Shown: positions 6,817 to 26,386, numbered from the stretch's first letter. The stretch: 45,160 bases of DNA from Planctomycetota bacterium (GCA_021324515.1 JAJPIY010000081.1:1-45160); one strand, 5' to 3'. Notes: generated by a model not told the origin, from the letters alone. Numbers and translations: made by a program.

Positions 6817-9800
6817 TTATCCCCCAACGCCTTTATCCGCCGTCTGAGTGCTCGGTTGCCGCCGACGTTTGCGGCCCCATGTGCGCAGTCCCCGCAGGAG
6901 TAGAAAAATGCGGCTGCCCACCGCGGCGAACATCAATCCCCCTACGACCGCTGTTAACCCCGCCAGGCGCCATCCCATCACACCAACCAGGGCTATTTGT
7001 TCTGGCCAGAATAAGTACAGCCGCGCCGTCAAGAAGGGTAAGAGGGACAAAAGCCACACGATTGCCAGAGCGCCGAGCCAGTATAGGGAAGCCGCGATAG
7101 TTTGGCGCATCTGTTGGCTTTCCTGCGAACGGAGCTGGAGCGTCAACGATTCAGCTCCCGACTCCGTTTGCCATGATACGGGGATGCCGAGCGCTTTCTC
7201 GCAATCTGAAACCCGAAGTCCGAGGTCCGAATTGCCATCGTCCGTTTCCGGTTTCAGATTGCGCATTTCGGATTTTAAAAGGCGGCCTTTGGCTTGCAGG
7301 GCCTTCAACCAATCGGCCAAGCTTTGGCCTTGTGGTCCTGTCCTTTGGCCGACATCGGGGTCAAAGTCGAGCACTTGCTGAGCATGACGCCTGTATGCAG
7401 CGAAGCGTCGCTGGGCAGCAACCCAGGCCGAGAATAGAGCATTGTTCCGCCGTTCTTTGGCCAGATCTTGGCAGATACGGAGTTGAGCGTCGGCGTGCCA
7501 GAGCGCCCGGGCAGCCTCGCGCGCTATGCCTTGCCAATTCGAAGCGCCCTCCAGGTGAGCCTGCCAACCGGGCGGGACCATCACGGTCCCCAGGATCGGC
7601 CCTTGCTCCGCGCCGGCCAACTGCGGGGGGGCTAGGTTGAGACGCTCCAGCGGTTCCGGCGGATCATACAGCCAACGCAAGCGGATGCAGCGCACGCCTG
7701 CTTGACCGGGCAAAGGTACCCATACCCGTGTGGAGCTGGGTTGGAACGGGGTCACTTCGACGCCGTCGATAGCTACGGCGAGAACACGGGCCGGGGCAGC
7801 GAAACGGAAGGTAAGATCGGCTTGCGTCTCATGGCGCAGCCAGCAGCGCATCTTGTGCAGCCAACGCCGGCCGTCCTCAACAGCCGCCCACTGCTCCTGC
7901 AAATAGGTGCGAACAGGAGTCGGGTGTTGCAAACGGACTTGCGGCAGCAAACGCACTTGCCACTCTCCCTCGCCAATGCGCCAGGCTTGTCCATTGGGAT
8001 GTTCCAGTCGTTGCGCGGCTTCCGGCCAGGTCGCTTGCAGCGTCTGGCGCGGCGATTTCAGAGGTCGGAGAGGCCCTTGTGTCTGAACGGTCAGTTCGCT
8101 GCCGACCACGGCCGCAAAATATTCAACCCGCTCGACGCCCTGCACAAGGATTTCCGGCATCCGTATGCCCCCAGCGGCCCTTTCGAGGGGCATGCTGCTA
8201 TGCAGCGTTACCTGATAATGCCCGTGTACACCCGGTTGTAACGGCAGCAGCCAGGACCGCTCTCCCATAGACCGCCGTGGTGCCGGCAAGAGCGCCAAAT
8301 GTCCGGCTTGCACTTCGACTTTCTCTTCCTCCCAATTGCGCAGCCGCAGACGGACTTGGCGTAGCTCGCCGTGCGTGACGGTGTAATCCACCGTGGCCGT
8401 AAAGCGCAACTCCTGGTCGGCCGCCTCAACGAGGGTCAACACCCGTGCGACGGCGTTGGCCGCAGCCTGGATCTGACATTCCAGGTGATAAAACAAATTC
8501 TGCGTCTCAAAAGTAGGCGGACGGTCGGCGTCTGGCGGTTGCTCCGTTCTACCACCTGGCTCCGTCTTGCCCGCCGACGGACGCCGATCGTTCGCCGGGG
8601 AATCGGGCTGCACAGGCTGGAGATTTTGTGTGCGTAGCGCTGCCAAGACAAGGTCGTTGGCGGCAGCTAAACGAAGGCGTGTGTGTTGCTTATTGGCGTG
8701 GAGCAAGCGCGGGCCGTTCAGTTCGAGATGCGGATGGCCAGCGCGGAAGGACAGGGACAGCCAACCGCTCAGATGAATCCGCGTCTTCTTCGTCGTCCGA
8801 TTCAGCCACACCAACAAGCGCGAACCGTTTTGCTTCCATGTTCTCACGTCCTCGCCGACCGCTGTGACAAGAACACAGTGAGGCGGCAGATCCCACTCGA
8901 TGGCGGCCAGGTCTCTGTTGGGTGCCGTGACATCGGCAACGACCTCGATTTCAGCCCGTTGCCTGTTCGCCCGGAGGACGACCTCGACCTCGCCCTGGAC
9001 CACGGGCGGCCTGGGTTCCAGACGCAGAAGCAGTTGAGGCGGCCGATCCGGGGGGATACGGTAAGCGATGCCTTGGAAATTCGCCTCCAGGCTTGGCCCC
9101 CCTAGCCAGTGCGAGGCAAATTCTTTGGTGTCGATGCGCGTGAGGTTTTGCGAGGTCTCGCGTTGAGCGTTCAGGCCAGGTTGGGTGCGATAAGCCAGGT
9201 AATGCGGTCCTCCGGCACGGACGCCGCGCGGCGTCGGCAGGGGCAGAGCTGTCGGCGAGGTCAAAGGTGCGCGCGGCAACAATTCCAGGGTCACTTGGAA
9301 GTCGCCGCTGATGGGATAGGGGAGCTCCAGATAGAGCATACGCTGATTACCGGCGCGCGAGACATGCCAGTCGCGCAGCTGGAAGCGCGCCCGCCAGGAC
9401 GGCCGCGAAAGCGATACGGTGCGCTGGGCATTGGCTGAACTGACCTCCAGTCCGGCGGGTAGGTCTACTTCCAACGTCTTGATCGCTCCTTGCTCGACAC
9501 GATAGCGCAGCCAAGCCGTCAAATGATGGGCTGCGGGACCAAGTTCCCACAGGTAAGCGGCCTGATAGCTTACGCGCAACGGGCGCTTCGGTTGGTACCA
9601 GTGCAGATGCACAGGCAGCGGCGGCGCACCCAGGTCTGCTTCCAAGGATTGGCCATTGTCGTCGTATGTCATCCATTGCGCACCGTTTTTGACCAGTACT
9701 TGCGGCTCGACGGCCCCGTCCGGAACACGCCAAGACAACCGGCTCCGCACCAAGGGGGGAACGGTGAATAGGGCATTGCGGTCCTCTAAGGTGCCGACCA

Positions 9801-12800
9801 CGGGGGCGCGGAAGCGTAGCTCAATCTTATGCCGGCCGCGGCTGCGCACCGGAAGAGAGTACCCTCCTTGCGGCGCGGCCAAGGGAGCGACACGCGCGCC
9901 ATCTACCAACACTTCGCCGACCAACCCAACCCCGACCAGCGGCACGATCAGTGTGGACGGTCCTTCGCTCAGACTGTGCGCAGAAAAAACGGCGGTGAAC
10001 TCAACCTGTTTTCCCTCATCCACGAGTCGCCCTTCGTAGACCGCATCGAGGAGTACCGTCTGTGGTCCACCGGGCGCTAAAGCCGGAGGCTGAGCCAATG
10101 CCTTGAGACGATTGAGGAGATCCACAGGTACTAACACCGTTTGTTTGCCTGGCGTCTCGGCTGATGCGGGAATAAGATAGACGGTGGCAGGCAGCGGCGC
10201 GGCGGCGCGGCCATTCCAGCCAAGAACGCCCAAAATCACCATCCCAGCTATTGCCGCAGAGGACGCGGTGCTTTTCGACGGGCGTGACCGGAGTTGCGAA
10301 CCAGGCGGTGCCTGGACAAGGGTGTTCAGATATTCCAGCACTGCGACCGCGCCGCTCGCCAGCAACGGCCACCAGGCCAGATCGCGCAGCGCTTCGGGCA
10401 GCCACAGTACACCCAAACCAAACAGGCTCAAGGCCGACAGCAGCAGTGCCAAACGGCGTTCCGTCCACCGCCGCTGCAACCAGTACAACAGAACGCACAG
10501 CCACCCCAGCGCGAACCCGAGGACCGTCATCCCCTCCCGGCGCACTACAAGCATCCGCTCTTCCGTCCCACCCGCAACGGGTTCCCATTCACTCCATTCG
10601 CTCCCCTCATAATCGGAACTCAGCGGCCACGACCCAGCTTCAGCCGAGTCGGCGAGGCTTTCGGGGTGCAGCCAACTCCATGCGGACCGGAAACGTCCAG
10701 AAGGATCTTGTCCGTGCTGCGCTGCTTGGTCGAGGGCGTTCTCTACTTCTTCAGAAAGCGGTTCATGCAGCAGCGCACCACGTCCGTGGTCCGTCGTCAA
10801 CAGAAGGGCTGAGCGCCCCAGCACGGCGACCAATTCGCGCTCTACCCACGGCACAGACGAGACGGGCGTCGCGACCATCGTCGCAAGCGGGACCGGCGTC
10901 TCGCTCGTCCAGGACAGTTGCTTAATGGTCAGGCGCGTCTCCGCTTTCACTCCCGCTTCGCGCAAGGCCAAATCGTCAATAATAAGGGGACAGCGGGGCA
11001 TTCCCAAGCGGAGGGTGGGAACGAGAGAAGACATTTCGCTGACCACTTCGCGCAGAGACATCTTTTGATCGGTGTGCCGATCGCGCAGCTCTTGAATGGC
11101 CTGCTTGAGCGCCGCGCGTCTGTTCGCCTGCTGCTCCTCCCGCAATGGATCGAACCGCGTCCACGCAGCGGGGAACTGGAACAACTCAGCAGTATGCCGC
11201 GGCAGCACTAGTTGGGCCGCACCGATCATGCCTGGTAGAGATTGATAACGCCCCGGGTGCAGCGGCATCCATTGGGGTGTTAAACGCCAGATGCGATGAA
11301 AAGCGAGCGGAGCGATTGGTAGTTGGGGGACGGGAGCGTCCAGAGCGCGCCAGAGCAGGCCCGCCGGCAAAAGGCGCGTATAAACGATCTCAAAATAGTG
11401 TCCATTATCTCCCGAAACGGCGTCGGCGCGGAGGGGGACCGGCAATGCCAGTTCGATTGGTCCTTCTTCGTCCTTGGGTGATGACTGGGAACTGGAAATG
11501 AACTGCGGCAGCCAGTGACCGTCGACCTGAACGGCCAACAGGCGTGAGCCAGGGGGCAAACGCAATGGCAGAGTACGTTCTCCCCAATTGGCGATCTGAA
11601 ATGAGAAATGATGCCGTAAGACATCGTCCCTTCCCGCATAGGTGATCAGACGCGCTTTCGCCGCCATTCCTCCGAGCGGTGAGACGTTGGTCTCCCTGGA
11701 GCGGTTATCGGGTTTCTCCGAGCGCTCCGGTGGCGGCATCTCGCTGGAGAGAATGAGGCGGACCTCATTCTGCACATAGCGGAAAGTACGCCAGGGCAAC
11801 GTGCCGCTCTCCGACGAAGACGCCGATTCGTGCAGGCCGACACGATGCACAGGTACAAGACCACTGCCGGTTCGGTGAAGCACGACTTCGCCTTCCATGC
11901 GCTCGGCGCCAAGAACAACCGGCAGCGGCACGTCCCAGCGATTGTCACGGGGTTGCAAGCGGCGTTGTGCATGCAAGCGGAGCGGTTCGTGCAAGCGGAG
12001 CGGCCGGGCCAATGTCAGACGCCATCGTTCACCAGTCGGTCGAACCGCGTGGACGACAGCGGCTTGCAGCGGATGAGGCGCCGCCAGTAGGTGCAAGACG
12101 CTGGATATTTCGGGGACGTACACGCGCTCAGTATGGCGGACGCGGTAGACCGCTGCTTCGTCACTACGCGGCGGCGCTTCGGTGCGCCATTGCCACGCTT
12201 CCCCGTCGCCGGCCGACAGCCATAGGTCGATCGTGTTGGGACTGCCGGCCTCCGCCTCCACCACCACATGCGTTTCGATGACCGCATCGCCTCCCACGAC
12301 AAGGACTGTGCTTGTGCATTTGGCCCGCACGCGCGGTGGACGCGCCCGGACCCGGATTTCTCCGGTTACAGGCTGGCCGCTATAACGATAGTAATACTCT
12401 GGTATTTTTTGCCCCCACGGTCCTTCACTCTCCGGTTCCGTGCGTTCCGCTGTGGTTTGCACCTGAAGATGGAACAGTTGCTCATCGCAATCCAGGGCCA
12501 GAGCGCCCTCGCGGAAGCGCGCCCCCAGTGGTACGGCATCGGGGAAGGGCAATCGTTTTTCCGTGAAGGGGTCAGGTCCAGCTGGCCGCAAATATAGGGT
12601 CAACGTCGGCAACCGCCGCGGCCAATCCGAAGCGCTGCTCCCCAGTTCCGCTTTCAGGTTTCGGAGTTCGGCTTTCCCACGCGGGGAAGGCTCCAGGGGA
12701 TTGCTAAGGTTGACGAAGAGCGTTGTGTTCCCTCCAACTTTGCGGAGGTGCCAGTCGCGCAGCAGCGCAATGGGAGTCAGCTCGACCTTCTCGACATTCC

Positions 12801-14295
12801 AGCCGACAGGCAACAACACCGGCAACTGGAACAGCTGCCCCTGACTCACGTCCCAGCCGATCTGTACTGTCAGGGCCATGCCTCCGGCATCGCAGCGCCA
12901 CCAGGTCAATTGATGGGTAACGAATTCGACGCCGTAGGCTTGCAATTGTGCGGCCGGCCGACGCGGCGAACCGACCGATCCGCCGCCCAACAACGTCAAG
13001 ACCTGTGCCCCCGTGGCGCGGTCGAGGTCCGAAGAAGTGAGCTGAAAACCACCAGCGGACCAACTTTCAATACGCAAGTCAGGATGAAGCCAGAGCGTGA
13101 GTGTCTCGCCGCGCGAAACGCTGTTGATTAAACGCAGACCAGGACTGCGCCAGACAATCGGCCGCGATCCGCCGGTCCCATTATGCAGCGGCGCCAGGCA
13201 ATGAACTTGCCACGTCCCGGCGCGTACCGGCCCCCGCAGCCGGATCGTTAAACGTGCGGGTTTGCCCCCCTCGCCAGACTGGAACGCATAACCGTCCACT
13301 TCAGGGCCGATAACATCGCGGGGACGTAGTTCTGAATCACATTCGCAAATTAGTTCACGGACGCCGCGCGACAGGCTGTCTAGCGTCAGCTCGAACGTGG
13401 CGTCCAGTCCTTCAGGAGACAACTTCTGTGTGGTCTTCTGGTGAACAAAAGGAACTGGCGGTGCGTCGATACCGGCGTCTGGACGGTCGATGGGGTGAAT
13501 GCGAATATCGATGCGCTGGCGATCGACGTGCTGGTGCCCCCCACAAACGATCCTCCACCGGCGCAGGTCTGTGACATCCGCTTCATGCGGGCCAGATAGC
13601 AGGGCGCCGTCGTTGAGGACGGAGACGGCGCGGCCAGCAGGTACGTCCAATTCCACAAGGGCGACGGGACAAGGGGGCATCTCCAGATGGAATTGCAAGC
13701 CTTCCGGGCTTGCCTCAGCCCGCGCTGACCAATCTAACGATACGGTTCGCTCACCCGGCGTTTCCACGAGCAGCGCCGGGGTCTTGCCGTCGAAGGCGGC
13801 AATCAGAGCGTCGCCGTTCTCAAAGCGCGCCTGCCGCAAGGCGAGATTGAAGGGCTGCAAATTCAGCAGGCCCGGTCCTGGCCCGGCGTGGACCAGCTTC
13901 CACTGCCCTTCACCGACGAGGCTGTCCTCTTTGAGCATGGCATGATAGCGTGCTTCCAATAGCTGAGGGGGAGGCTTGCGAGTCCTCGCCTGTACCGCAC
14001 GCTTGACCAGGGCATCGAATTCGGCGACAGGCAGACGCACCAGCACGCCCTCCTGAACGCGCTTCAACTCCTCTGGCAAACGCTCCGGCGGCAGGAACAG
14101 CCGACGAAATGCCGGCATCCCTTCCTCCTCTTCGCTATGACAAGGAACCAGGAAGAGGAGAAGACAAAGCGGTGCGGAGACAAGGCAACTCCAGGCCAAC
14201 ACACTACCCAGACTAGAGAGAACGCACGGGGCCTTGCCGGGATCGAGAAGCGGTCGCTGCTCCCACCTTGATCGCGCTTTGTCGCTTCTCGTCAT
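6817..14295 (-). CDS. Giant (2492 aa) membrane-anchored protein with two tandem copies of a beta-rich architecture, each followed by TM segments
   Basis: Uninterrupted 7.5-kb ORF; N-terminal TM (SCLVSAPLCLLLFLV), mid-protein TMs (FALGWLCVLLYWL, ALLLSALSLFGLGVLWL), C-terminal TMs (LYWLGALAIVWLLSLLPFL, AGLTAVVGGLMFAAVGSRIFLLL). Confidence 0.85.
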   Translation of the reverse strand: MTRSDKARSRWEQRPLLDPGKAPCVLSSLGSVLAWSCLVSAPLCLLLFLVPCHSEEEEGMPAFRRLFLPPERLPEELKRVQEGVLVRLPVAEFDALVKRAVQARTRKPPPQLLEARYHAMLKEDSLVGEGQWKLVHAGPGPGLLNLQPFNLALRQARFENGDALIAAFDGKTPALLVETPGERTVSLDWSARAEASPEGLQFHLEMPPCPVALVELDVPAGRAVSVLNDGALLSGPHEADVTDLRRWRIVCGGHQHVDRQRIDIRIHPIDRPDAGIDAPPVPFVHQKTTQKLSPEGLDATFELTLDSLSRGVRELICECDSELRPRDVIGPEVDGYAFQSGEGGKPARLTIRLRGPVRAGTWQVHCLAPLHNGTGGSRPIVWRSPGLRLINSVSRGETLTLWLHPDLRIESWSAGGFQLTSSDLDRATGAQVLTLLGGGSVGSPRRPAAQLQAYGVEFVTHQLTWWRCDAGGMALTVQIGWDVSQGQLFQLPVLLPVGWNVEKVELTPIALLRDWHLRKVGGNTTLFVNLSNPLEPSPRGKAELRNLKAELGSSASDWPRRLPTLTLYLRPAGPDPFTEKRLPFPDAVPLGARFREGALALDCDEQLFHLQVQTTAERTEPESEGPWGQKIPEYYYRYSGQPVTGEIRVRARPPRVRAKCTSTVLVVGGDAVIETHVVVEAEAGSPNTIDLWLSAGDGEAWQWRTEAPPRSDEAAVYRVRHTERVYVPEISSVLHLLAAPHPLQAAVVHAVRPTGERWRLTLARPLRLHEPLRLHAQRRLQPRDNRWDVPLPVVLGAERMEGEVVLHRTGSGLVPVHRVGLHESASSSESGTLPWRTFRYVQNEVRLILSSEMPPPERSEKPDNRSRETNVSPLGGMAAKARLITYAGRDDVLRHHFSFQIANWGERTLPLRLPPGSRLLAVQVDGHWLPQFISSSQSSPKDEEGPIELALPVPLRADAVSGDNGHYFEIVYTRLLPAGLLWRALDAPVPQLPIAPLAFHRIWRLTPQWMPLHPGRYQSLPGMIGAAQLVLPRHTAELFQFPAAWTRFDPLREEQQANRRAALKQAIQELRDRHTDQKMSLREVVSEMSSLVPTLRLGMPRCPLIIDDLALREAGVKAETRLTIKQLSWTSETPVPLATMVATPVSSVPWVERELVAVLGRSALLLTTDHGRGALLHEPLSEEVENALDQAAQHGQDPSGRFRSAWSWLHPESLADSAEAGSWPLSSDYEGSEWSEWEPVAGGTEERMLVVRREGMTVLGFALGWLCVLLYWLQRRWTERRLALLLSALSLFGLGVLWLPEALRDLAWWPLLASGAVAVLEYLNTLVQAPPGSQLRSRPSKSTASSAAIAGMVILGVLGWNGRAAAPLPATVYLIPASAETPGKQTVLVPVDLLNRLKALAQPPALAPGGPQTVLLDAVYEGRLVDEGKQVEFTAVFSAHSLSEGPSTLIVPLVGVGLVGEVLVDGARVAPLAAPQGGYSLPVRSRGRHKIELRFRAPVVGTLEDRNALFTVPPLVRSRLSWRVPDGAVEPQVLVKNGAQWMTYDDNGQSLEADLGAPPLPVHLHWYQPKRPLRVSYQAAYLWELGPAAHHLTAWLRYRVEQGAIKTLEVDLPAGLEVSSANAQRTVSLSRPSWRARFQLRDWHVSRAGNQRMLYLELPYPISGDFQVTLELLPRAPLTSPTALPLPTPRGVRAGGPHYLAYRTQPGLNAQRETSQNLTRIDTKEFASHWLGGPSLEANFQGIAYRIPPDRPPQLLLRLEPRPPVVQGEVEVVLRANRQRAEIEVVADVTAPNRDLAAIEWDLPPHCVLVTAVGEDVRTWKQNGSRLLVWLNRTTKKTRIHLSGWLSLSFRAGHPHLELNGPRLLHANKQHTRLRLAAANDLVLAALRTQNLQPVQPDSPANDRRPSAGKTEPGGRTEQPPDADRPPTFETQNLFYHLECQIQAAANAVARVLTLVEAADQELRFTATVDYTVTHGELRQVRLRLRNWEEEKVEVQAGHLALLPAPRRSMGERSWLLPLQPGVHGHYQVTLHSSMPLERAAGGIRMPEILVQGVERVEYFAAVVGSELTVQTQGPLRPLKSPRQTLQATWPEAAQRLEHPNGQAWRIGEGEWQVRLLPQVRLQHPTPVRTYLQEQWAAVEDGRRWLHKMRCWLRHETQADLTFRFAAPARVLAVAIDGVEVTPFQPSSTRVWVPLPGQAGVRCIRLRWLYDPPEPLERLNLAPPQLAGAEQGPILGTVMVPPGWQAHLEGASNWQGIAREAARALWHADAQLRICQDLAKERRNNALFSAWVAAQRRFAAYRRHAQQVLDFDPDVGQRTGPQGQSLADWLKALQAKGRLLKSEMRNLKPETDDGNSDLGLRVSDCEKALGIPVSWQTESGAESLTLQLRSQESQQMRQTIAASLYWLGALAIVWLLSLLPFLTARLYLFWPEQIALVGVMGWRLAGLTAVVGGLMFAAVGSRIFLLLRGLRTWGRKRRRQPSTQTADKGVGG
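7200..7263. repeat. Inverted repeat (14-nt perfect arms) embedded in the giant CDS
   Basis: CGCAATCTGAAACC (7200-7213) / GGTTTCAGATTGCG (7250-7263), with TCCGAA-like repeat content between. Confidence 0.8.
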
Positions 14296-14328
14296 GGTCC
14301 TAGCTCCTTGTCTCCTTGTCTTCAGTCG

Positions 14329-17300
14329 TTATCCCACATGAGGCGGCGGCGCATCGACGGTGGAGGGTTCGCCACTGGGCGGACGCGGAGACGGACTTTT
14401 ACGGATCAGTGAGGAACCGGCCCGGCCCCGGCTGAAACTCGGCAGGAAGACAATCTGTCGGCGATAGCGCTGGTGCATCAGCCATTGCACGCCCACGACG
14501 GCCAAGAGCACCACTGCGCCCGGCTCACAGCCGTAGATAAGGGCGAACAGCAGCGTCGGCCGAAATAATACAGCAATAGCGATCGCCAAAGTAAACAAAA
14601 TGAGCAGCGGCCAGAACCAGGCGGCCAGGCGGCTTCCCTCCTGGCCATGCACCCGCGCCCCCCCATACAGTCCCAAACCGACGACCGACAATCCCAGCGA
14701 GCAAACCAGCAGCCATGCCAGCTGCGGAGCGTGGGTCAGGACAATGGGCACGTTCGGGGCTTGCCAACACACCAGTGCAGCCGATTCATAATCACGCCGC
14801 CACTCCGGAGGTACAGAGAGCTCGGCAGCCAATAATAACCAGCCGCGCCGCGTCCAGATGCGCTCCACGCCCGGCGCGCTTTCCGGCGCCAGCAACACTC
14901 GATTGGGAGGAAGGCTCACTTGCCAGCAAATCGGCGCCCCGGTCGCCCGAAGTATCTGAGGCGGCTGCAAAGTGGTGTGCAAGGGGCTGCCACTGCTGCG
15001 ACCCGGCGGCGACTGAAAAAACACTTCTAAGATGCTAGAAGGGTTAGCCGGACCTTGATTGTCATTAGCGTTTCCGGTTTGTTGCCGGTCTCCCAGAGGG
15101 GGAAGGTGTAAACGAGCAATGGCGCCGCCGCCACTGTTTTCACCTTGATCATTGACGACGACGGGGATGACCTTGTGGCCATTGAACGAGAACTGAGCGT
15201 TCAGGGTAACGACGGGGGCGGGCATGAGAAGGTCGAGATGTCGATCGGTGATTTGGCGGAGCCGAAAACTCGCCTGCCAACGCTGAGTGCCGCCTTCTTC
15301 TAGCTGTACGCGCATTAGCGCTCGCTCAACGAGGGCGGAAAAGCCTGCCGCTTGCTCGCTCAGAACGAGCCGCAGAGGCGTATTGAACTTGGCTGTGCGC
15401 AGCACTAACATCGGCAAAGCGCGGTCTTTGACCTCTTCGATGCTCTGTTCTTCCCAGCGGGGGCTGGCCACGCGCGGCAGAAAGCCAGGTTCGCTCCAGA
15501 TGCGGACTTTGAAATCCCCTGTCGTTGCCTGTTCCAGCGTTACCAACGGCACCAAAAGAGGCTCTCCCTTGCGCGGCGTTCGGTCTTTTTCTCCCAGACG
15601 TGTCGTATAGTGCAGCAGCAGGCGCCACTCTTTTCCGCTTTCCTTCGTTGGCACGGGGAGGCGAAGCCTCCCAGGGGACAGACGGTCGGCGTCAGCCGGC
15701 TTGTCGGCTTTATCAGCTAGCTGACGCTGCTCGTCCGCCAAAGATTCGGTCCTTAACGAACGTAGGTCTTGTCCTTGCTCGTCTTGGATGTGCAACGTAT
15801 CGCCGAGGATTGCCGGAACGCGCAGGGTCACAAAAGACGGCGGCGTCGGCGGCAGTTGGAGCCGCAGTTCGTGGCGCACTTCGCCGCGGTGGCCGTTCAG
15901 TGTCAGATCTACCACCGCTGTCACACGCAGCTCCGGCCGGTAAGGCCGCCAGCTCACGTCGATCCCCAATTCTTCTCCTAACACGCCGCGGCAGCGCCAC
16001 GTCTGTTCATTGGGCCGCGGCTGCCTGGTTAATTCCAGACTGCTTTGTTCAACATTATTCAGGACCACCTCCACATCCGCAGGCGCTTCGATCTTCACTT
16101 CGCACGATTCGATGGTTCCCTGAGGCTGCGGCAGCTTCAGAACGGCATGCTCTTCTGCCTTGTAACTCGCTTTATAGCGTCCCTCCAACCGCTGCGCTTG
16201 GGTAGGTGCTTCCCGGAGAAGGGCGGAAGGGACCGTCACCCAGCGCGGAGGGCTGGTTGGGGGCATCAAAACGTTTTCGTCGGCAGGCTCCCAATTCGGC
16301 GGCACGAAGATCTTGAGCGGCTCCACGTCCGCCCATTTCGTCGCGGGAGCGATGGTCGTGGTAACATGCCAATAAGCCCTTTGGCTTGCCAGGGAACTAC
16401 TCTCCTCCGCTTTGGACGAAGCCTTATGGAGCGTCAAGGTATGCGATACGCGCATCCTCATCTGCACAGGCACTCTGACCGCTTCCAGATCCAGCCAAGA
16501 GAGCGATTGAGGGCCTGTGGCCGCCGTTGGCCCTTCAACCAAGGGGATATTGCTGTAAACCAGAGTCGCCACCGTAGCTGGGACATCTCCTTTCGATTCT
16601 TCTGTTTCTAGACGGCGCAGCTGCATATCGCCGTGTCCTCGATAATCGAGGTGCAGACTGCGTACTTGATTGCGCACCAGGACGGTCCCCGTTTGACGGG
16701 CGGCATCGAAGACAAAGAACGGACCAATGGGCATCGCGGAGCCGCGCGGCGACAAGGGTAACAGGGGCGACTTCACTTGGACATGAAGCGGATCGCTCCG
16801 CGCTTCCTTCAGATAAATGGTCCGCAGTGAGGCAAAGGCATATTTCTTATCGTCCGTTTCCATGCGATGTTCGATGGGGGCCTCTTTATCGGACGCAAGC
16901 ACTTTGATCTCTGCGTTGCGTGGCACAAGCAGACGCCAAACTTTCGTCGGTGCTCCTTCGGCTGTTAAGCTCAAATCTGCCTGGGTAGTCAGTCCTACAG
17001 CATCGAGCCGCGCTTGAATGCGTCCTTCGGCTATCCGTAGCGGCTCGCCCACCGAAGGGCGTGCTTCCTTCCATGACAAGTCGAGTTTGTCAACTGGCCC
17101 AAGGCCGGGACTGCCGCGGAGGTGATTGTTTTTTAACTCCAGACCTGGCAATTGTAGATCTTTGAGCAGTTGGCCGCCGAGGCGAACGTCCGTACAGTTG
17201 CTTGGCAGGTCCAATTCCAGCTGCGTTATGACTGCACGCGGCAGCGTTAGCTCGAACCCCCGGCTGCTACCTTCGCGCCCAACCAGCGGCACCAACAGAT

Positions 17301-17880
17301 CGAGCTTGACATGATATTCTCCCGCCTTATCGAGACGCACCAGAAAGCCGCCCGTGTTGGAACGGCGGATCTGCGCCATGTGTCCATCCGTCTGGGCCGA
17401 AGATGCGCCTGCTTGTGAGCACGCCAGGGACACCAGCGTATCGGCCCGTTCCGCCGTACCGCTGAATTCGGCTTCCAGGCGGACGGCCCCGGCCTCCACT
17501 TTGCCGCGCAGAAAACAGCGCGTGGGGGGCACGGCATTTTCATTCTTGGGATTTTCGATCTGCTTTTTGAGTTTGTCGATCTGATCGAGCAGTTCCTGAT
17601 ATTTCTCCGGCCGGAGAATAACTGCCTTGGGGAGAAGATCGAGCGTTTCGTTGGCCTGGTCGCAAAGGATGATTACAGCATCGGCGGGCAACATGGTCCC
17701 TGGCTTGGCCGAGGCACGTTCTCCGCCGCCTTGCCGAGAACTACGGCCCTCGCCCTTATTTTCGTTTGCCTTGGCGGGAACCGATTGCTTAACGGGAGTC
17801 GGCTCCTCAGCGCGCAACGATAAGGTCAGCGTCGTACTCAGAAGCAGCCAGATGAAATATCTGCCTGGCGCGGACGACAT
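14329..17880 (-). CDS. Large (1183 aa) secreted/membrane protein, probably paralogous to the halves of the 2492-aa neighbour
   Basis: Signal peptide (YFIWLLLSTTLTLSLRAEE), VILRPEKYQELLDQIDKL motif, beta-rich body, C-terminal TM cluster (LAWLLVCSLGLSVVGLGLYGG, WPLLILFTLAIAIAVLF). Confidence 0.82.
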   Translation of the reverse strand: MSSAPGRYFIWLLLSTTLTLSLRAEEPTPVKQSVPAKANENKGEGRSSRQGGGERASAKPGTMLPADAVIILCDQANETLDLLPKAVILRPEKYQELLDQIDKLKKQIENPKNENAVPPTRCFLRGKVEAGAVRLEAEFSGTAERADTLVSLACSQAGASSAQTDGHMAQIRRSNTGGFLVRLDKAGEYHVKLDLLVPLVGREGSSRGFELTLPRAVITQLELDLPSNCTDVRLGGQLLKDLQLPGLELKNNHLRGSPGLGPVDKLDLSWKEARPSVGEPLRIAEGRIQARLDAVGLTTQADLSLTAEGAPTKVWRLLVPRNAEIKVLASDKEAPIEHRMETDDKKYAFASLRTIYLKEARSDPLHVQVKSPLLPLSPRGSAMPIGPFFVFDAARQTGTVLVRNQVRSLHLDYRGHGDMQLRRLETEESKGDVPATVATLVYSNIPLVEGPTAATGPQSLSWLDLEAVRVPVQMRMRVSHTLTLHKASSKAEESSSLASQRAYWHVTTTIAPATKWADVEPLKIFVPPNWEPADENVLMPPTSPPRWVTVPSALLREAPTQAQRLEGRYKASYKAEEHAVLKLPQPQGTIESCEVKIEAPADVEVVLNNVEQSSLELTRQPRPNEQTWRCRGVLGEELGIDVSWRPYRPELRVTAVVDLTLNGHRGEVRHELRLQLPPTPPSFVTLRVPAILGDTLHIQDEQGQDLRSLRTESLADEQRQLADKADKPADADRLSPGRLRLPVPTKESGKEWRLLLHYTTRLGEKDRTPRKGEPLLVPLVTLEQATTGDFKVRIWSEPGFLPRVASPRWEEQSIEEVKDRALPMLVLRTAKFNTPLRLVLSEQAAGFSALVERALMRVQLEEGGTQRWQASFRLRQITDRHLDLLMPAPVVTLNAQFSFNGHKVIPVVVNDQGENSGGGAIARLHLPPLGDRQQTGNANDNQGPANPSSILEVFFQSPPGRSSGSPLHTTLQPPQILRATGAPICWQVSLPPNRVLLAPESAPGVERIWTRRGWLLLAAELSVPPEWRRDYESAALVCWQAPNVPIVLTHAPQLAWLLVCSLGLSVVGLGLYGGARVHGQEGSRLAAWFWPLLILFTLAIAIAVLFRPTLLFALIYGCEPGAVVLLAVVGVQWLMHQRYRRQIVFLPSFSRGRAGSSLIRKSPSPRPPSGEPSTVDAPPPHVG

Positions 17881-17914: not shown

Positions 17915-18622
17915 TCACACGCTCTTCGGATTGCCGTGGGTCATGTACCAATCAACTGCTTCTTCAGCGCTCAGCGTTCGACATTCCGCACTCAGCCAAC
18001 CCAGACAACTCGCATGGGGGCGGAGTGCCTCCATCCAGCGTAGCTCGTCGGCATCCTCTCCCAATTGACCGAGTACGAGAAAACCGAACCGATCTGCCTG
18101 TTCCCACACACCAAGGCTATTCACGGCTACGGGAGCGATGAGTAAATTATATCCTGTTTGGCGCAACTGTGTCGCCTCTTTGTCAGAACAAGCAGTGATT
18201 TTGTGGCTGCGCAGCGCCAGCGGCCGGCCATTGACAAGCAAGCTGCGCCCTTTCTTCTGCAACAAACGCAGTCCGTGGCTGATGGTGACGCAATCGCAGC
18301 GCTGACCGTCTTGCCATAATTCAATCGGCCCTTGATAGAGAAAAGGACATTGCGGCTCCCAGAAGCTGGCCTCGGGAATGATCGCGCGGACAGTCAAACC
18401 GGGCGAGTGGGGCGGTGTCAGCGTCCCGAGAGAGGACGGTAGAGGACGTAGTGGATAAGCCACCTCAATGGTGCTGGAATAAAGGCAGCGCGGCCCCACG
18501 AGCCGACCACGCACTTCGGTCGTCGCCGTGTGATATTCGGGCGATACCGTGATCCAAACTTCTGCTGATAGCGGGTCCAGGGAACGATCATGTACCTCAA
18601 TGCGGCGAATGCGGTTCTTCAT
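17915..18622 (-). CDS. Small protein resembling non-catalytic parts of glycoside hydrolase family 2
   Basis: EASFWEPQCPFLYQG and SLLVNGRPLALRSHK resemble the GH2 LWSPExPxLY and FxxNGxPxxLRG motifs; no obvious GH2 catalytic region. Confidence 0.55.
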   Translation of the reverse strand: MKNRIRRIEVHDRSLDPLSAEVWITVSPEYHTATTEVRGRLVGPRCLYSSTIEVAYPLRPLPSSLGTLTPPHSPGLTVRAIIPEASFWEPQCPFLYQGPIELWQDGQRCDCVTISHGLRLLQKKGRSLLVNGRPLALRSHKITACSDKEATQLRQTGYNLLIAPVAVNSLGVWEQADRFGFLVLGQLGEDADELRWMEALRPHASCLGWLSAECRTLSAEEAVDWYMTHGNPKSV

Positions 18623-18703: not shown

Positions 18704-21700
18704 TCACTTAAACAGTTGTTCTGCTTGGCGGCGTAGCAAATCCAGTTGGAGGCGCTGTATCCACGGTAGGACGGCGGTATCCGGCGCAGCCAGAGCGATG
18801 GTGGCTTTTGCCAACCCTTGCCGCGCTTCCTTCAGCGCCCCCATGCGCTGCTGCACCAAGGCCAACCACAGCCATTCGCGTGCGCAGGGACGACGGCCGT
18901 GCAACTCCCGCGCTTGGTTCAGGCGGCGAACAGCGGACGCCAAATCACCGGCGCGGAACAGGGCCGCTCCCAGCGTGCAGAGATAATCCGGATCGTCCGG
19001 CGCGCGTTCGACGGCCTGTTTCGCCAACTCCACCAGCCGCTCTGCCGGAACACCGGGATCGGCCGCCAGCACGCCCGTCCAAGCAATCAAGTAGGCAATA
19101 CGCTCGCTGGCTTGGGTTTCAGGCTGATAGAGTTTCACCAGTTCGGTGCAGGCGTGGCGGTAACCGGTGAGGTCGCCTTCGCGCAGAAGCAGAGCGGCGT
19201 AGAGACACCACGCTTCGGGTTCTTGCGGAGCGCGGCGCACGACTTCAGCGAAGTCGGCACCGGCTTGCTTCCAGTGCCCCATCTCGGCCTGCACGCTGCC
19301 GCGCCGGGCATGATACAGCCAATGGTCCGGCCCTTGCTCAATCAACTTGTCCAGGTGCCAGAGAGCGGCGCTCCAATGCCCGCCGCGGGCACATTCTTCG
19401 GCGGTTTGGCGGTGCCAGGCCATGACGTAATCGGCGGAGAAGTGGAAGAAGTCGCCTCGTGTCTGCCGCAGTATCCTCCACAAGTCTTTCAGTTCATCCC
19501 GTGCCAAGGGCACCACATCGCGATGTTCATCGAGACGACTGCCCGTGAGCAATTGGGCAAGACGCACCAAGTCCTCGACGGCAGAGTCCGTCAAGGGCAA
19601 GTCCCAAGACCAGACGGCGCCGGCTGGCCCGGTGGTGAGCAGGCTTCGGCCATCGGCACTGAAACGCACTTGTCGGACGGGCCAGGGGTGTTGCAAAGGC
19701 GGTGTCAGCGTTTGGCCGCTCTCGGCATCCCAGACACGCGCCGTCTGATCGAAACTGGCCGTGGCCACACGCCGACCATCGGGGCTGAAGCGGGCCTGCA
19801 CCACAGTGCCGTTGTGTTTAAACGGCGGCACCAGCATCTTTCCGCTGACAATGTCCCAGAGACAGGCCATGTTATCATCGCCGGCCGTTACCAAACGCCG
19901 ACCGTCCGGGTGGAAATCGGCGAACCAGATGGTGCTGGCGTGCTTCAAGAGCGGGCCGATCGGTGCCCCGCTCTCGGCGCTCCACACGCGCGCCGTCTGG
20001 TCCGTACTCGTTGTCACCACGCGGCGGCCATCGGGGCTGAAAGCCGCGTAGGTGATCTCCCCGTGATGCGCCAAGGGCGGAGTAACAGGTTCGCCGCTGG
20101 AGATAGCATAAACACGCACGGTGTTGTCCTTGTTGATCTTGAGGACGAAGCGGTCATCTGGGCTGGTGTGTTCGGCGACTGGGGGGGTCTCTGGGCCCTG
20201 GGATTCCAGGTAGCTCATGCGCAAATCGCGGTCCACGCGATGGCGGAACACCACGTCTTCATTGACGACCTTGGCCCGGTGACGGCAGGCGACGTCCCAG
20301 AGACATACGGTGCCATCATCGCTGGCCGTGGCCAGACGGCGGCTGTCGGGACTGAAAGCCACGCGGTTGATGCTGCCGTTGGCCCGCAAAGGCGGGGTGA
20401 GGGCGGCCCCGGTGGTGGCGCTCCAGACGCGCGCGCTATTATCGTCTCCGGCAGTGGCCACATGGCAACCGTCGGGGCTGAAAGCAGCCCAGCGGATGAG
20501 GCTCTTGTGCTGTAGTGGTTCTACCAGGGGTTCGCCGTCGAGGACGCGCCAGATCCGAACCGTGCCGTCGTCGCTGCCAGTCAGCACGCGTTGTCCGAAG
20601 GGACTGAAAGCCACCAGAGTAACGCGCTGGCGATGGCGCAAGCGGCGGCCGACGGGTGTGCCGTCAGCCACGTCCCAGACCTGGGCGGTGGCATCGGCGG
20701 CGCCACTGATGATGCGTTTGCTGTCCGGGCTGAAGGCGAGGCATAGCACGGCGCGATCGTGGGAAAGAACGATGGGCGTGGCTTTCCGCGTGGCCGCATC
20801 CCACAAATGGACCAGGCCGTCGTCGCCGGCAGTCGCTAGCCAACGGCCATCCGGGCTGAAAAGGGCCTTGTTCACCGCGCCGCCATGGGCGAGTTCGCCG
20901 GCCAGCGGTTTGCCAGTAGCCGCGTCCCAGACACGGGCCGCCTTGCCGCTCGCCGTTGCCACTTGTCGGCCGTCCGGACTGAAGTCGATGCCGCGCAGCT
21001 CGCCTCCAGGGCGCAGCACGACCGGGGTGACGCCGGACTCGCCAAGGTCCCAAATACGCGCCGCGCCGTCGCGGCTGACGACAGCGAGGCGTCGGCCGTC
21101 GCGGCTGAAAACCGCCAACTCTACCGGACTGCCGGTACTCAACGGCGCAAATACCTCTTGTCCCGTCCCACTATCCCACAAGTAGACTTTCCCTTCATCG
21201 CCGGCCGTGAGGAGGCGGCTGCCATCGGGACTAAAGCACGTCTCGTTGACGGCACCTTCGTGGATCCACAATTGTTGCGGTCGGGGTAATTCCTGGAGCA
21301 GAGCAGCGATGCGCTGGCGGTGCATTTCTTCACGTGCCGGAGTGCCCGCGTCCAGGCGCAGCGCTTCGGTGAACCACAGCAAAGCTGCGAAGCCGTCGCC
21401 CGTGTTCAGGGCGCTGGATCCCTGGACGATGTGCAAACGAACGAGGTTGTGCCGGCTCTCGGCCAGGGCCTGTTCCAGTCGGACGTGATAAATTCCTCCT
21501 AACGTCAGCAGCGCCAGCGCCGCCATGATGAGGATGCCGAACACAGCGGCCTTGGTTGGGTGACGGCGCATCCATTTGACGGATCGGCCCCACCAACCAG
21601 TCGGGCGCGCTTCGATCGGTTGATTACTGAGAAAGCGATGGAGGTCTTCGGCCAAGTCTTCGGCGCTGGGGTAACGGCGGGCCGGATCTTTTTCCAAACA

Positions 21701-22771
21701 CTTCAGGCAAATGGTCTCCAGATCGCGCGGTACCTTGCGGTGCAATTGCGACGGCGGTAAAGGATCTTGCGCCACCAGTTTGCGGAGAGTGGTCAGCGAA
21801 CTATCACTCTCGAAGGGCGGCCGGCCAGTCAACATCTCGTAAAGGATCGCCCCCAGGCCATAGACATCGGTAGCCGGACCAATAGCGTGGGTGCGCGCCT
21901 CGGCCTGTTCCGGGGCCATGTAGCTGGGCGTGCCGAGAATGGCGCCGGTACGCGTCTGCGACTGGACATCGAGATGTTTGGCCAGGCCGAAATCAGTGAT
22001 TTTAGGGATGCCGTAAAGATGAAATGCTGCTTGCGTTTCAGCGTGCAGGCTGTCCGCACCGGAGACGTGCTCGGCCGGGGTCGCCAGCAGGACGTTGCCC
22101 GGCTTGAGATCGCGATGAATGATGCCTTTCTGATGAGCACTATGCATGGCCAGGGCGAGCAGGCGGACGAGATGAGCCGCCAGCCGCGGCGGCTGCGGCG
22201 CCCCGGTGAGCTTCTGCGCCAGCGTGCCACCATCCACGTATTCCAACGAGAAGAACGGACAGCCGTTGTGTTCACTGATCTCGTAGATCTGCACGATATA
22301 AGGATGTTGCAGGCGGGCGACGGCTTCCGCCTCGGCGCGGAAGCGCTCCAGCTGCTGTGGATCGGCATTGGCGCCGGCCAGGATCATCTTGAGGGCGACG
22401 AGACGATTCAGTTTGAGCTGCCGCGCTTTATAGACCACGCCCATGCCGCCGCGGCCTAACTCGCCGAGAATTTCATAACCGGGAATGTGCTGCGATAACA
22501 CTGGTGCGCCGCCCTCTTCGTCCTCCTCCGGAGGACGAGGCAGGGTCGCACGGGTCGAGGCTGTGTCGCCCGGCGGTGCTCCCTGTCCTTCTCCTCCCAA
22601 ATGGGGAGGAGAAGGAGGAGACGGTTGGGGTTGATAGTCGAGCGTCTGTGGGAAAGGGAGAGTGGCAGGGATCGGAGCCAGTCCACAGATAGGACATACC
22701 GGCATTGTGGAAGTCGGTTGGTCCTCACAGTCCCACTGATGGCCGCGCGGGCAGGTCAGCGACAGGGCCAT
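18704..22771 (-). CDS. Serine/threonine protein kinase with N-terminal Cys-rich ribbon, TM helix, about 13 WD40 repeats and TPR-like C-terminus
   Basis: CPRGHxW..CPICG ribbon; GRGGMGVVYKARQ, VALKMI, IIHRDLKPGNVLL, ITDFGLAK, GTPSYMAPEQ; TM (AVFGILIMAALALLTLGGIY); repeated FSPDGRR..TAxDDxxxRVWDAxTG; C-terminal helical repeats. Confidence 0.95.
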   Translation of the reverse strand: MALSLTCPRGHQWDCEDQPTSTMPVCPICGLAPIPATLPFPQTLDYQPQPSPPSPPHLGGEGQGAPPGDTASTRATLPRPPEEDEEGGAPVLSQHIPGYEILGELGRGGMGVVYKARQLKLNRLVALKMILAGANADPQQLERFRAEAEAVARLQHPYIVQIYEISEHNGCPFFSLEYVDGGTLAQKLTGAPQPPRLAAHLVRLLALAMHSAHQKGIIHRDLKPGNVLLATPAEHVSGADSLHAETQAAFHLYGIPKITDFGLAKHLDVQSQTRTGAILGTPSYMAPEQAEARTHAIGPATDVYGLGAILYEMLTGRPPFESDSSLTTLRKLVAQDPLPPSQLHRKVPRDLETICLKCLEKDPARRYPSAEDLAEDLHRFLSNQPIEARPTGWWGRSVKWMRRHPTKAAVFGILIMAALALLTLGGIYHVRLEQALAESRHNLVRLHIVQGSSALNTGDGFAALLWFTEALRLDAGTPAREEMHRQRIAALLQELPRPQQLWIHEGAVNETCFSPDGSRLLTAGDEGKVYLWDSGTGQEVFAPLSTGSPVELAVFSRDGRRLAVVSRDGAARIWDLGESGVTPVVLRPGGELRGIDFSPDGRQVATASGKAARVWDAATGKPLAGELAHGGAVNKALFSPDGRWLATAGDDGLVHLWDAATRKATPIVLSHDRAVLCLAFSPDSKRIISGAADATAQVWDVADGTPVGRRLRHRQRVTLVAFSPFGQRVLTGSDDGTVRIWRVLDGEPLVEPLQHKSLIRWAAFSPDGCHVATAGDDNSARVWSATTGAALTPPLRANGSINRVAFSPDSRRLATASDDGTVCLWDVACRHRAKVVNEDVVFRHRVDRDLRMSYLESQGPETPPVAEHTSPDDRFVLKINKDNTVRVYAISSGEPVTPPLAHHGEITYAAFSPDGRRVVTTSTDQTARVWSAESGAPIGPLLKHASTIWFADFHPDGRRLVTAGDDNMACLWDIVSGKMLVPPFKHNGTVVQARFSPDGRRVATASFDQTARVWDAESGQTLTPPLQHPWPVRQVRFSADGRSLLTTGPAGAVWSWDLPLTDSAVEDLVRLAQLLTGSRLDEHRDVVPLARDELKDLWRILRQTRGDFFHFSADYVMAWHRQTAEECARGGHWSAALWHLDKLIEQGPDHWLYHARRGSVQAEMGHWKQAGADFAEVVRRAPQEPEAWCLYAALLLREGDLTGYRHACTELVKLYQPETQASERIAYLIAWTGVLAADPGVPAERLVELAKQAVERAPDDPDYLCTLGAALFRAGDLASAVRRLNQARELHGRRPCAREWLWLALVQQRMGALKEARQGLAKATIALAAPDTAVLPWIQRLQLDLLRRQAEQLFK
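22586..22616. repeat. Perfect 13-bp-stem hairpin within the kinase coding sequence
   Basis: TCCTTCTCCTCCC (22586-22598) / GGGAGGAGAAGGA (22604-22616), 5-nt loop; encodes part of the SPPHLGGEGQG linker. Confidence 0.85.
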
Positions 22772-22886: not shown

Positions 22887-25800
22887 CTAGGTTCCGAAAT
22901 CATCCCTCCGTCCGCTTTCTTTCTCGTGTTCCTCATCTTCCTCGTCCTCGGTGAGGATGCTTGGCGCCTTGAGGAGTGGATCATTCTCGACGCGCAAGCT
23001 CTGTATATGTTCCTTGCCGTCTACCGTGAGAACAATGCGGTACATGCCGGGCGGAGCAGGGTCTTGCCCCGGACCACGGCTGCGGCCCTGACCGCGCGGC
23101 TCCCGCGGACTGCGCGCCAGGTCCCACATCAAGCGATGGAGGCCCGGCGCCATTTGCTCTTTTTTCACGGGCAGTTCGCGTACTGTTCGGCCAGTGTAAT
23201 CGACGATTTTGAGCTGGATGTTTTCAGCCTTCTTGCTCAAGGAATAGTAAATTTGCGCTCCGGAAGGGGGATTTTCTCCGATGAAGCGATGGTTGCCGGA
23301 GCCGTAGGGCGTGCCGCGCGCTGGTTCGCGCCGCCAGCGCATCGCCGTTGTCGGCTTGTACAACGTCGCTTCGGTCTTGAGGGTTTCCGGTTTCATCTGC
23401 CGCAGCGGCGTCACGTCCAGTATCCACAAACTGCGGCCGTGCGTCGCCGCCACCATCTCGCCATTGGACGGATGCTGGACCAATTCGTGGACCGCCACAG
23501 TCGGCAGATTGTTATTGATCTTGGTCCACACACCACCGCGGTCGATCGATACCCATACACCGAATTCGGTACCCAAATACAGGACATTTTGGTTTTCGAT
23601 GTCTTCACGCAGCACGCGGGTGGTTCCCATCGGCAGATTGCCGCGCAGCGATTTCCACGTCTGGCCGAAATCCTCCGTGACGTAAACGTAGGGTGCATCG
23701 TCATCGGAGCGATGAGCGTCGAAAACGACGTAGGCCCGGCCGTCGGTGAAACGCGACGGTTCGATACTGGCCACCCACCGTGGACCGGGCAAGCCAATCT
23801 TGGCAGTGACATTGGTCCACTTAGCGCCGCCGTCTTGCGTCACCCACACGTAGCCGTCGTCGGTGCCGACGTACAGCACGTTAGGATTACGCGGTGACTC
23901 GGCCAGAGCGCTAGCTGTGCCGCGTTTGGTGCGACTGATCTCCGGTGAAATCACCTGTAAATCATCGCCTTTCTTGACCGAACGAAATACATAGTTGCCG
24001 CCACAATAAAAAATCTGGGAATTGTGGTTGGACAAAATAAACGGCGTGTTCCAATTGAAACGATAGGGCGGTTGGCCGCGTACATCGCGCGGTCGAATAG
24101 GGGTGAATTCGCCGGTGCGAATATTGCGCCGACTCATGCGCCCATCCTGCGATTCGTAGTACACAAGGTCCGGATCCTGTTGATCGACACGACAGACAAA
24201 GCCGTCGCCGCCGCCCACCAGAATCCAATCCTCGTTGATTGGTCCCTGTCCATCGAGTGTATGGCTCGGGCCACCCCAGCTACCATTATCTTGCAAGCCG
24301 CCATAGACTCGATATGGCTGCCGTGAATCGATTGATACGTGATAGAATTGACCGATCGCCATGTTGTTGAGGTACTCCCAATGGGCCATGCGATCATAGG
24401 TCACGTAAAAGCCGCCGTCCGTGCCCAGCAGCATGTGCCGGCTGTCGCGCGGATCGATCCACAGAGCGTGTTGATCGGCATGAAAAGCGCTCCTATCTGT
24501 CTTGAACGTCTTGCCGCCGTCTTGAGAGCGATATAACTCGATACCCAGAACATACACATATCTGTCGTCGGTTGGATCGACGCGGACTTGACTAAAATAC
24601 ATAGGACGTGGATTAACGCTATTGACGCGAGTCCATGACTCGCCGCCGTCGGTCGATTTATAAAGTCCGCCATATTCAAAGCTATTAGGCCCCTGCTGGT
24701 CCTGCACGTTCTCACGCTGTCCTCCGTACCAGAAACTATAAGGCCGTCTTGGGTTTTCTTGGCCGGATGGCGGACGCCACACGATTGTCAGGTGTAATTC
24801 TTTGTTTTCCTTGCCGCGCAGGACTTGGACCGTTATCTTATCGCCGGGATTATGAGCGCGGAACAACTCGATGACTTGCTGGAAATTTTTCACCTCTGTT
24901 TTGTCGATTTTCTGAATGATGTCGCCGGCTTGCAATCCGGCTTTTTCAGGCTCACTCCCTGGCAAGACACGCTCGATGCGTACGCCATTGCCAGCCTCTT
25001 CGCCGCGGAAACCCAGAGGTAAGAATTGCCTTCCTCCTGCCCGTCCTGACTCCGGACGTCTACCCAGCGTCACAGAAATGTCGCGTATTTCCTCCGTACG
25101 CACAATCGTCAGGGTCATTTTGTCGCCGATTTTGTGCGTTCGGATCTGCTCGACCAGGTCTTCATACTTGCCGATGGGCTTCTTGTCTGCGGCCTTAATA
25201 ATGTCACCGACTTTCAGCCCCGCTTTGGCGGCGGGGCCGGCCGGCGTGACTTGCGTCAGTTTCACACCGCCCTCTGCGTCTTCACCAGTAACGCCCAGGT
25301 ACACTGGGTTTGGCGGCGTACCCATGCCGATCTTTTCACAATCAATAATGGCGTACACCACATGCGGATCTCTGCGGGAATAATCAAGCCCAATGCGCCC
25401 CAACTGGCAGGTCGGTAATCCTTTGGTCAGTTTCCGGAACGACTTGCCTCCATCGGTCGTTTTGTAAATGGCGCTGCCTGGTCCCCATTTCTTGATGGGA
25501 TCATAAGCGTCGTAACCATCTTGCAGCGGCGGCTCGCCGCGATGGCTATCGAAGCCGTCACGCATTCGCTCCCAGGTCGCCACTAACAGGGTCTCTGGAT
25601 CTTCCGGGTGCATCTTGATGTCGATGACGCCTGTCTTGTCATCGACATAAAGGATTTTCTCCCACGTTTTGCCGCCATCCGTAGTCTTGAACAAACCACG
25701 CTCTTCATTGGGGCCATACAGTCGGCCCAGCGCCCCCACATATACGATGTCCGGATTTTTGGGATGTACAACAATGCGGCCAATCTGGAACGATTTCCTG

Positions 25801-26354: not shown

Positions 26355-26386
26355 GGTTGCGTCCTCGTGTATGGCACTCCTGTGTG

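Follow-up and report, generated by a model that had tools for sequence, protein, structure and literature searches.

In this study, two adjacent giant genes of a Planctomycetota bacterium were shown by profile-profile comparison to encode three diverged copies of one architecture, which together form one paralogous family. The three copies, designated S, N and C, lie within a 45,160-nucleotide stretch of DNA (the window; GCA_021324515.1 JAJPIY010000081.1:1-45160), which belongs, as a single contig, to a planctomycete genome of 4.9 Mb that is 92% complete. Moreover, each copy is itself, judging from the internal repeats of its profile, a tandem array of approximately five related domains, a feature added here to the original prediction. 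The whole is best explained as a non-enzymatic, membrane-anchored scaffold or binding complex in the cell envelope, a reading to which we assign a rough probability of 0.55, and the anatomy of the units alone is held with high confidence.

Gene pair and homology of the three units

The gene S (14329..17880, minus strand) encodes unit 1 as a protein of 1183 aa, and the giant gene (6817..14295, minus strand) encodes units 2 and 3, N and C, fused in a protein of 2492 aa; S is the upstream member of the pair because both genes lie on the minus strand. The two ORF lengths, the common direction and the spacing of 33 bp (14296-14328) were all as read in the original prediction. At the sensitivity of the protein search, which returned a single match, a second copy of the giant was absent from its own genome. 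The dN/dS values against the nearest genome were approximately 0.20-0.22 for both genes, and both are under purifying selection. The nearest named relative found was Planctomycetota bacterium isolate Centralia_MAG_199, the sole match of a pattern search with P0001.

Homologues were collected from 59 related genomes at E <= 1e-3, which yielded the giant in 41 and S in 34 of them, and unit profiles were built from 37-40 homologues with N defined as giant residues 1-1215 and C as residues 1340-2492. Direct BLASTP similarity was weak, with a best E of 2e-4 for one half of the giant against the other and of 0.11 for the giant against S, and such pairwise searches were set aside as proof of homology, being too feeble to decide. 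The profile comparisons, in contrast, were significant in all three pairs (N vs C, E = 2e-33; N vs S, 4e-35; C vs S, 1e-39), and alignments built separately gave E = 4e-36 for N vs C and E = 1e-40 for C vs S, whereas decoys with reversed or shuffled columns always stayed at E >= 0.001. All three profile pairs were co-linear over approximately 790-840 columns, which extended from a helix motif through the fifth repeat (D5) and stopped before the transmembrane (TM) cluster. Thus, the proposals that the giant consists of two tandem units and that its halves share one architecture with the 1183-aa protein were borne out, the E-values of this three-way comparison ranging from 1e-33 to 1e-40.

The shared region opens in every unit with this motif (N, VRLPVAEFDALVKRA; C, VLVPVDLLNRLKAL; S, VILRPEKYQELLDQI). 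The PExxxELL-type motif that had been predicted in each unit is real, although the spelling given for one copy, EEFDALV, was not, the actual letters being VAEFDALV. The consensus is LPRxEFE in N, VxLxPExY in S and VLVPxxLL in C, and overall the motif is of the class of a short [VL]P-x-E-[FY]-type helix, one per unit; unfused relatives show it twice, as in TVYIPYDELERVFEKEGRGVFLPYAEFIKLW. In S, a putative signal peptide (MSSAPGRYFIWLLLSTTLTLSLRAEEP, residues ~1-24, 17809..17880, minus strand) coincides with model helix 6-20 and with a strong N-terminal hydropathy peak in orthologues, and it is followed by the helix motif AVILRPEKYQELLDQIDKLKKQ (residues 86-110, 17551..17625, minus strand), where the profile alignment with C starts and where the model places a helix at 91-109. 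In N, hydropathy indicates a signal peptide or signal anchor at residues ~25-48 (14152..14223, minus strand), and the helix motif LVRLPVAEFDALVKRAVQ at residues ~82-104 (13984..14052, minus strand) marks the start of the profile alignment and corresponds to helix 31-46 of the modelled piece. The C motif, VLVPVDLLNRLKALAQ, likewise stands at the start of the profile alignment (residues ~1384-1402, 10090..10146, minus strand).

Repeated domains and predicted topology

Each unit profile aligned with itself out of register, and single-domain slices recovered the other repeats. The repeats are approximately 160-200 aa long with about five per unit, which amounts to approximately 15 related domains per operon. 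Their starts lie near residues 118, 280, 474, 650 and 857 of S, near 111, 282, 458, 655 and 881 of N, and near 74, 235, 427, 610 and 789 of C, to which 1339 is added for giant numbering. In S, the repeats D1 (118-279), D2 (280-473), D3 (474-649), D4 (650-856) and D5 (857-1040) occupy 14761..17529 on the minus strand, where the model is beta-rich as well and the boundaries are approximate. Those of N (D1 111-281, D2 282-457, D3 458-654, D4 655-880, D5 881-1030; 11206..13965, minus strand) are supported by profile repeats, the model, Foldseek and an in-register profile of the M1 aminopeptidase N-domain, and those of C (D1 1413-1573, D2 1574-1765, D3 1766-1948, D4 1949-2127, D5 2128-2249; 7549..10059, minus strand) by profile repeats and homology to N and S. 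In addition, N contains a mixed helix and strand region ahead of its TM cluster (residues ~1031-1250, 10546..11205, minus strand), which was drawn from model secondary structure of partly low confidence and has no counterpart in the S model.

The original prediction had placed TM clusters in the middle and at the C-terminus of the giant, and hydropathy located them at residues ~1257-1359 and from ~2404 or 2407 to 2460, respectively. The C-terminal cluster of S comprises three predicted helices (residues ~1044-1144, 14449..14751, minus strand; hydropathy ~1044-1129, model helices 1053-1144), and three peaks were also counted in 36 of 37 S homologues. The middle cluster (residues 1257-1359, 10219..10527, minus strand) combines three helices with a signal-like segment, SAAIAGMVILGVLGWNGRAAAPLPA, that opens the C unit; four peaks occur here and in 30 of 40 homologues, and the fourth segment reads like a signal peptide at the very site where an unfused C gene starts with one. 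The cluster that closes C shows two peaks (6916..7086, minus strand). Since four crossings is an even number, both ectodomains of the giant would lie on the same side of the membrane, and this topology, as drawn from hydropathy, is supported but not proven. In genus g17 (L080 and other g17 genomes), the giant is only approximately 1500-1750 aa long, the C unit retains only about half its length, and the C-terminal TM cluster was not detected in the shortened C unit of L080, which suggests that C is not always anchored. The signal peptide, the large non-cytoplasmic domain and the C-terminal TM helices, as read from sequence and hydropathy, agree with the earlier assignment to a planctomycete membrane or envelope family, and the term cell-surface is narrowed to a membrane anchor with exposure to the periplasm or the exterior.

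Distribution and gene order

The N profile matched 67 of 73 genomes of the order, each at least 90% complete, and was without a match in the other 6; in a sample across the phylum Planctomycetota, it matched 56 of 147 genomes. S and the giant were co-directional and adjacent in all 35 loci in which both were mapped. Several S/giant pairs share exactly 4 bp, as is seen with translational coupling; larger overlaps are an artefact of choosing the longest possible ORF. Furthermore, four genomes of one family of the class (G045, G050, G054 and G146; for example, loci L116 and L121) contain the pair at a further locus, where the giant measures approximately 2700 aa.

The S-N-C order is kept across the order, the class and the phylum. 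In two families outside the class (loci L112 and L127), the three units are encoded by separate genes lying side by side, and each of these begins with a signal-peptide-like segment of its own. The proposal of duplication and fusion thus holds for the existence of three paralogous units but not for a recent local duplication, against which the conserved order speaks; the term fusion suits the giant, whose units are separate in those two families, although an ancestral fused gene may instead have split to give the separate genes. In 14 distant loci that lay outside profile training, of which L116-L117, L120 and L121 come from the same class, 34 of 38 units best matched the profile of their own position (chance expectation, one third), which suggests that the S, N and C types are most likely older than the radiation of the phylum. 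A plasmid search with an unfused S unit gave zero matches. The unfused N-type gene of G068 (L127:8521-12777, plus strand) contains a type IV pilin/GspG-like segment at residues 985-1080, between TM helices (NCBIfam E 1.7e-7), which was not seen in the other scanned homologues.

Family searches and neighbouring genes

No family in Pfam or NCBIfam matched S or the giant or covered the units, and no Pfam family recurred in more than one sequence among 114 unit sequences (37+40+37). Searches of PDB sequences with single proteins, profiles and homologues returned no convincing chain, and neither a Pfam or NCBIfam peptidase match nor the metallopeptidase catalytic domain of M1 aminopeptidases was found. 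The earlier statement that no catalytic domain is recognisable is consistent with all of these searches, none of which gave a recurring match. Among the near-invariant residues, which include the start Met, G, P and W predominate and Y, A, L and T are few, whereas D, E, H, K, R, S and C are absent. This composition argues that catalysis by the units is unlikely. An enzyme whose catalytic domain has diverged beyond recognition, for which residues 1031-1250 of N (seen in the N model but missing from that of S) and the low-confidence model parts would leave room, is accordingly the least probable of the alternatives, given the structural character of the near-invariant residues, Pfam families that match at most one of the 114 sequences and profiles that find no convincing PDB chain.

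Neighbouring genes were considered as a clue to function and rejected because they differ between distant genomes. A prolyl-oligopeptidase-like gene occurs in 7 of the family's loci and one resembling inositol monophosphatase in 5 loci, and no third partner gene near the pair was common to distant loci. Since the neighbours vary in this way, nothing beyond S, N and C seems to belong to the conserved unit. Several other genes of the window were recorded. A 235-aa protein just upstream of S (17915-18622, minus strand) weakly resembles a non-catalytic domain of family 2 glycoside hydrolases, and its relatives are also upstream of S in L061 and L064. A serine/threonine kinase fused to WD40 repeats follows (18704-22771, minus strand); related kinases near the pair in L066, L075 and L112 may merely mirror the abundance of such kinases. 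Farther on are a sortilin/BNR-type repeat protein with two inserted PDZ domains at residues ~370-450 and ~470-540 (22887-26399, minus strand) and a 1702-aa protein (37699-42807, plus strand) that, from inspection by eye, seems to combine a part like polysaccharide deacetylases, a repeat region, a propeller of the sorbosone-dehydrogenase kind, HEAT-like repeats and a cytochrome c motif.

Fold of the repeated domains

The AlphaFold models of S (mean pLDDT 76, pTM 0.40) and N (mean pLDDT 80, pTM 0.47) both show the motif helix followed by beta-rich domains, after which the S model adds TM helices. In Foldseek searches against the PDB, ribophorin I/Ost1 of the human and yeast oligosaccharyltransferase (OST) ranked first for both models, with E down to 7e-11, followed by integrin alpha with long alignments and whole-chain TM-scores of 0.08-0.15 of the query. 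Matches to the M1 family (LTA4H, ERAP1/2 and, for N only, a TFIID chain) spanned approximately 200-260 columns, which is the size of the M1 N-domain; those to LTA4H and ERAP had E of ~1e-4 over ~200 columns. The Foldseek probability was 1.00 for Ost1, LTA4H and ERAP, the queries being predicted models. The low whole-chain TM-scores, approximately 0.1 of the query, reflect the poorly predicted relative placement of the domains (pTM 0.40-0.47), so that single-domain similarity alone is meaningful.

Moreover, a profile of 24 M1 N-domains of the phylum, found via PF17900 (Peptidase_M1_N), aligned in register with D1-D5 of N, with D1, D2, D3 and D5 of C, and with D1, D2, D4 and D5 of S, meeting the repeat starts within approximately 5 residues. 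The best E was 4e-4 against at least 0.27 for the reversed profile, each match being weak (probability <= 35%); the signal is carried by the concordance of register across repeats, which are homologous and hence non-independent tests. A fold of the M1 aminopeptidase N-domain/ribophorin I (Ost1) type is thus supported but not proven for the repeats by models and profiles, and the fold itself is probably a known one.

Discussion

We propose that the three paralogous subunits S, N and C would build one envelope complex, with N and C in one chain. A signal sequence would export each subunit, whose approximately five beta-sandwich domains would form a rod outside the cytoplasmic membrane, anchored in it by two to three TM helices clustered at the C-terminus. 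The middle cluster of the giant, with its three helices and internal signal-like helix, would put both giant rods on the same side as the S rod. The domains would be of the M1-N/ribophorin I (Ost1) type without the enzyme, and the complex would serve as a non-catalytic scaffold or binding platform. The structural near-invariant residues, the lack of a recurring Pfam family and the varied neighbours together favour such a non-enzymatic complex, for which both the scaffold role and physical contact between S and N-C are inferred. Tentatively, the set may even be a phylum-typical envelope machine with no counterpart in other bacteria, in which three paralogous membrane subunits carry nothing but approximately 15 M1-N/ribophorin-like domains in tandem. 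Such a machine might span the periplasm, organise the invaginated membranes or handle proteins that are exported.

One narrower form of the preferred explanation is a bridge between the inner and outer membranes or a periplasm-shaping scaffold tied to the unusual planctomycete envelope, which we regard as possible at somewhat longer odds. Long arrays on a membrane anchor in three paralogous subunits would suit this role, as would a wide occurrence in a phylum whose cell plan includes heavily invaginated membranes (PMC8567305); however, no outer-membrane or peptidoglycan-binding domain was found in the Pfam and NCBIfam scans, and the set occurs in just 56 of the 147 sampled phylum genomes. Membrane-coat-like proteins that combine a beta-propeller with alpha-helical repeats have been described in Planctomycetes, Verrucomicrobia and Chlamydiae (PVC; PMC2799638). 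The present proteins resemble them in being large and in belonging to a phylum with complex membranes, but differ in their beta-sandwich repeat models, signal sequence and TM clusters.

A role resembling that of an integrin leg, in which the proteins would touch other cells or surfaces as a surface adhesin or receptor, is unlikely. The units share with the integrin alpha ectodomain a membrane-anchored chain of beta-sandwiches, which yields the long Foldseek alignments, but any beta-sandwich chain would give such matches, the whole-chain TM-scores are low and there is no sequence similarity. Unlike integrin alpha with its N-terminal seven-bladed beta-propeller, the units have no recognised propeller head or other ligand-binding head; P0001 and P0002 matched no propeller family, and in the models a short helix precedes the beta-sandwich repeats. 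Adhesins turn over fast, and conservation in nearly a whole order is atypical for them.

Rather more doubtful still is a bacterial counterpart of ribophorin I, which would hold exported or glycosylated polypeptides at a translocon or glycosyltransferase in the manner of Ost1. Ost1, which binds glycosylated peptides, consists of one TM helix and a pair of similar beta-rich domains in the lumen (PMC7226087), and it is the top Foldseek match of both models; like it, the units are modelled as tandem beta-rich, non-catalytic domains on the non-cytoplasmic side of a membrane anchor. However, each unit has approximately five domains and two to three TM helices, with three units per operon, and no sequence-level match exists, Pfam ribophorin being absent from the 37+40+37 unit sequences at E 0.01. 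An OST-like role, at which the fold hints, was rejected since a match to STT3 (PF02516) is absent from the window's genome (92% complete), and no glycosyltransferase or translocon gene is conserved beside the pair. Fold alone does not fix function, as M1 peptidases share it. The likeness to the M1 aminopeptidase N-domain comprises fold similarity and the weak in-register profile similarity, but unlike M1 aminopeptidases the units give no PF17900 match with HMMER, lack a metallopeptidase domain and carry the domain in tandem.

In the part of the literature that was searched, no paper joined Planctomycetota with ribophorin and none described these units, and the main-text passages of the T. immobilis and G. 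obscuriglobus proteome papers named no such protein; the S-N-C architecture is undescribed in the literature and curated families searched. The S-N-C set is found in nearly all close relatives and in much of the phylum, and it is therefore probably a basic, unstudied component of the cell envelope.

In conclusion, a conserved 11-kb operon that lacks a family model and an assigned function was found in more than 90% of the order's near-complete genomes and in over one third of the phylum sample. Its named parts, namely three units, approximately five repeats in each, the S-N-C order and an unfused form, make of hypothetical giants a defined candidate complex, for which tagging, deletion and imaging are feasible in tractable planctomycetes. 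The link to ribophorin and the M1 N-domain is relevant to how that fold evolved, and, if a role in shaping the envelope is true, the complex would bear on the organisation of planctomycete membranes.
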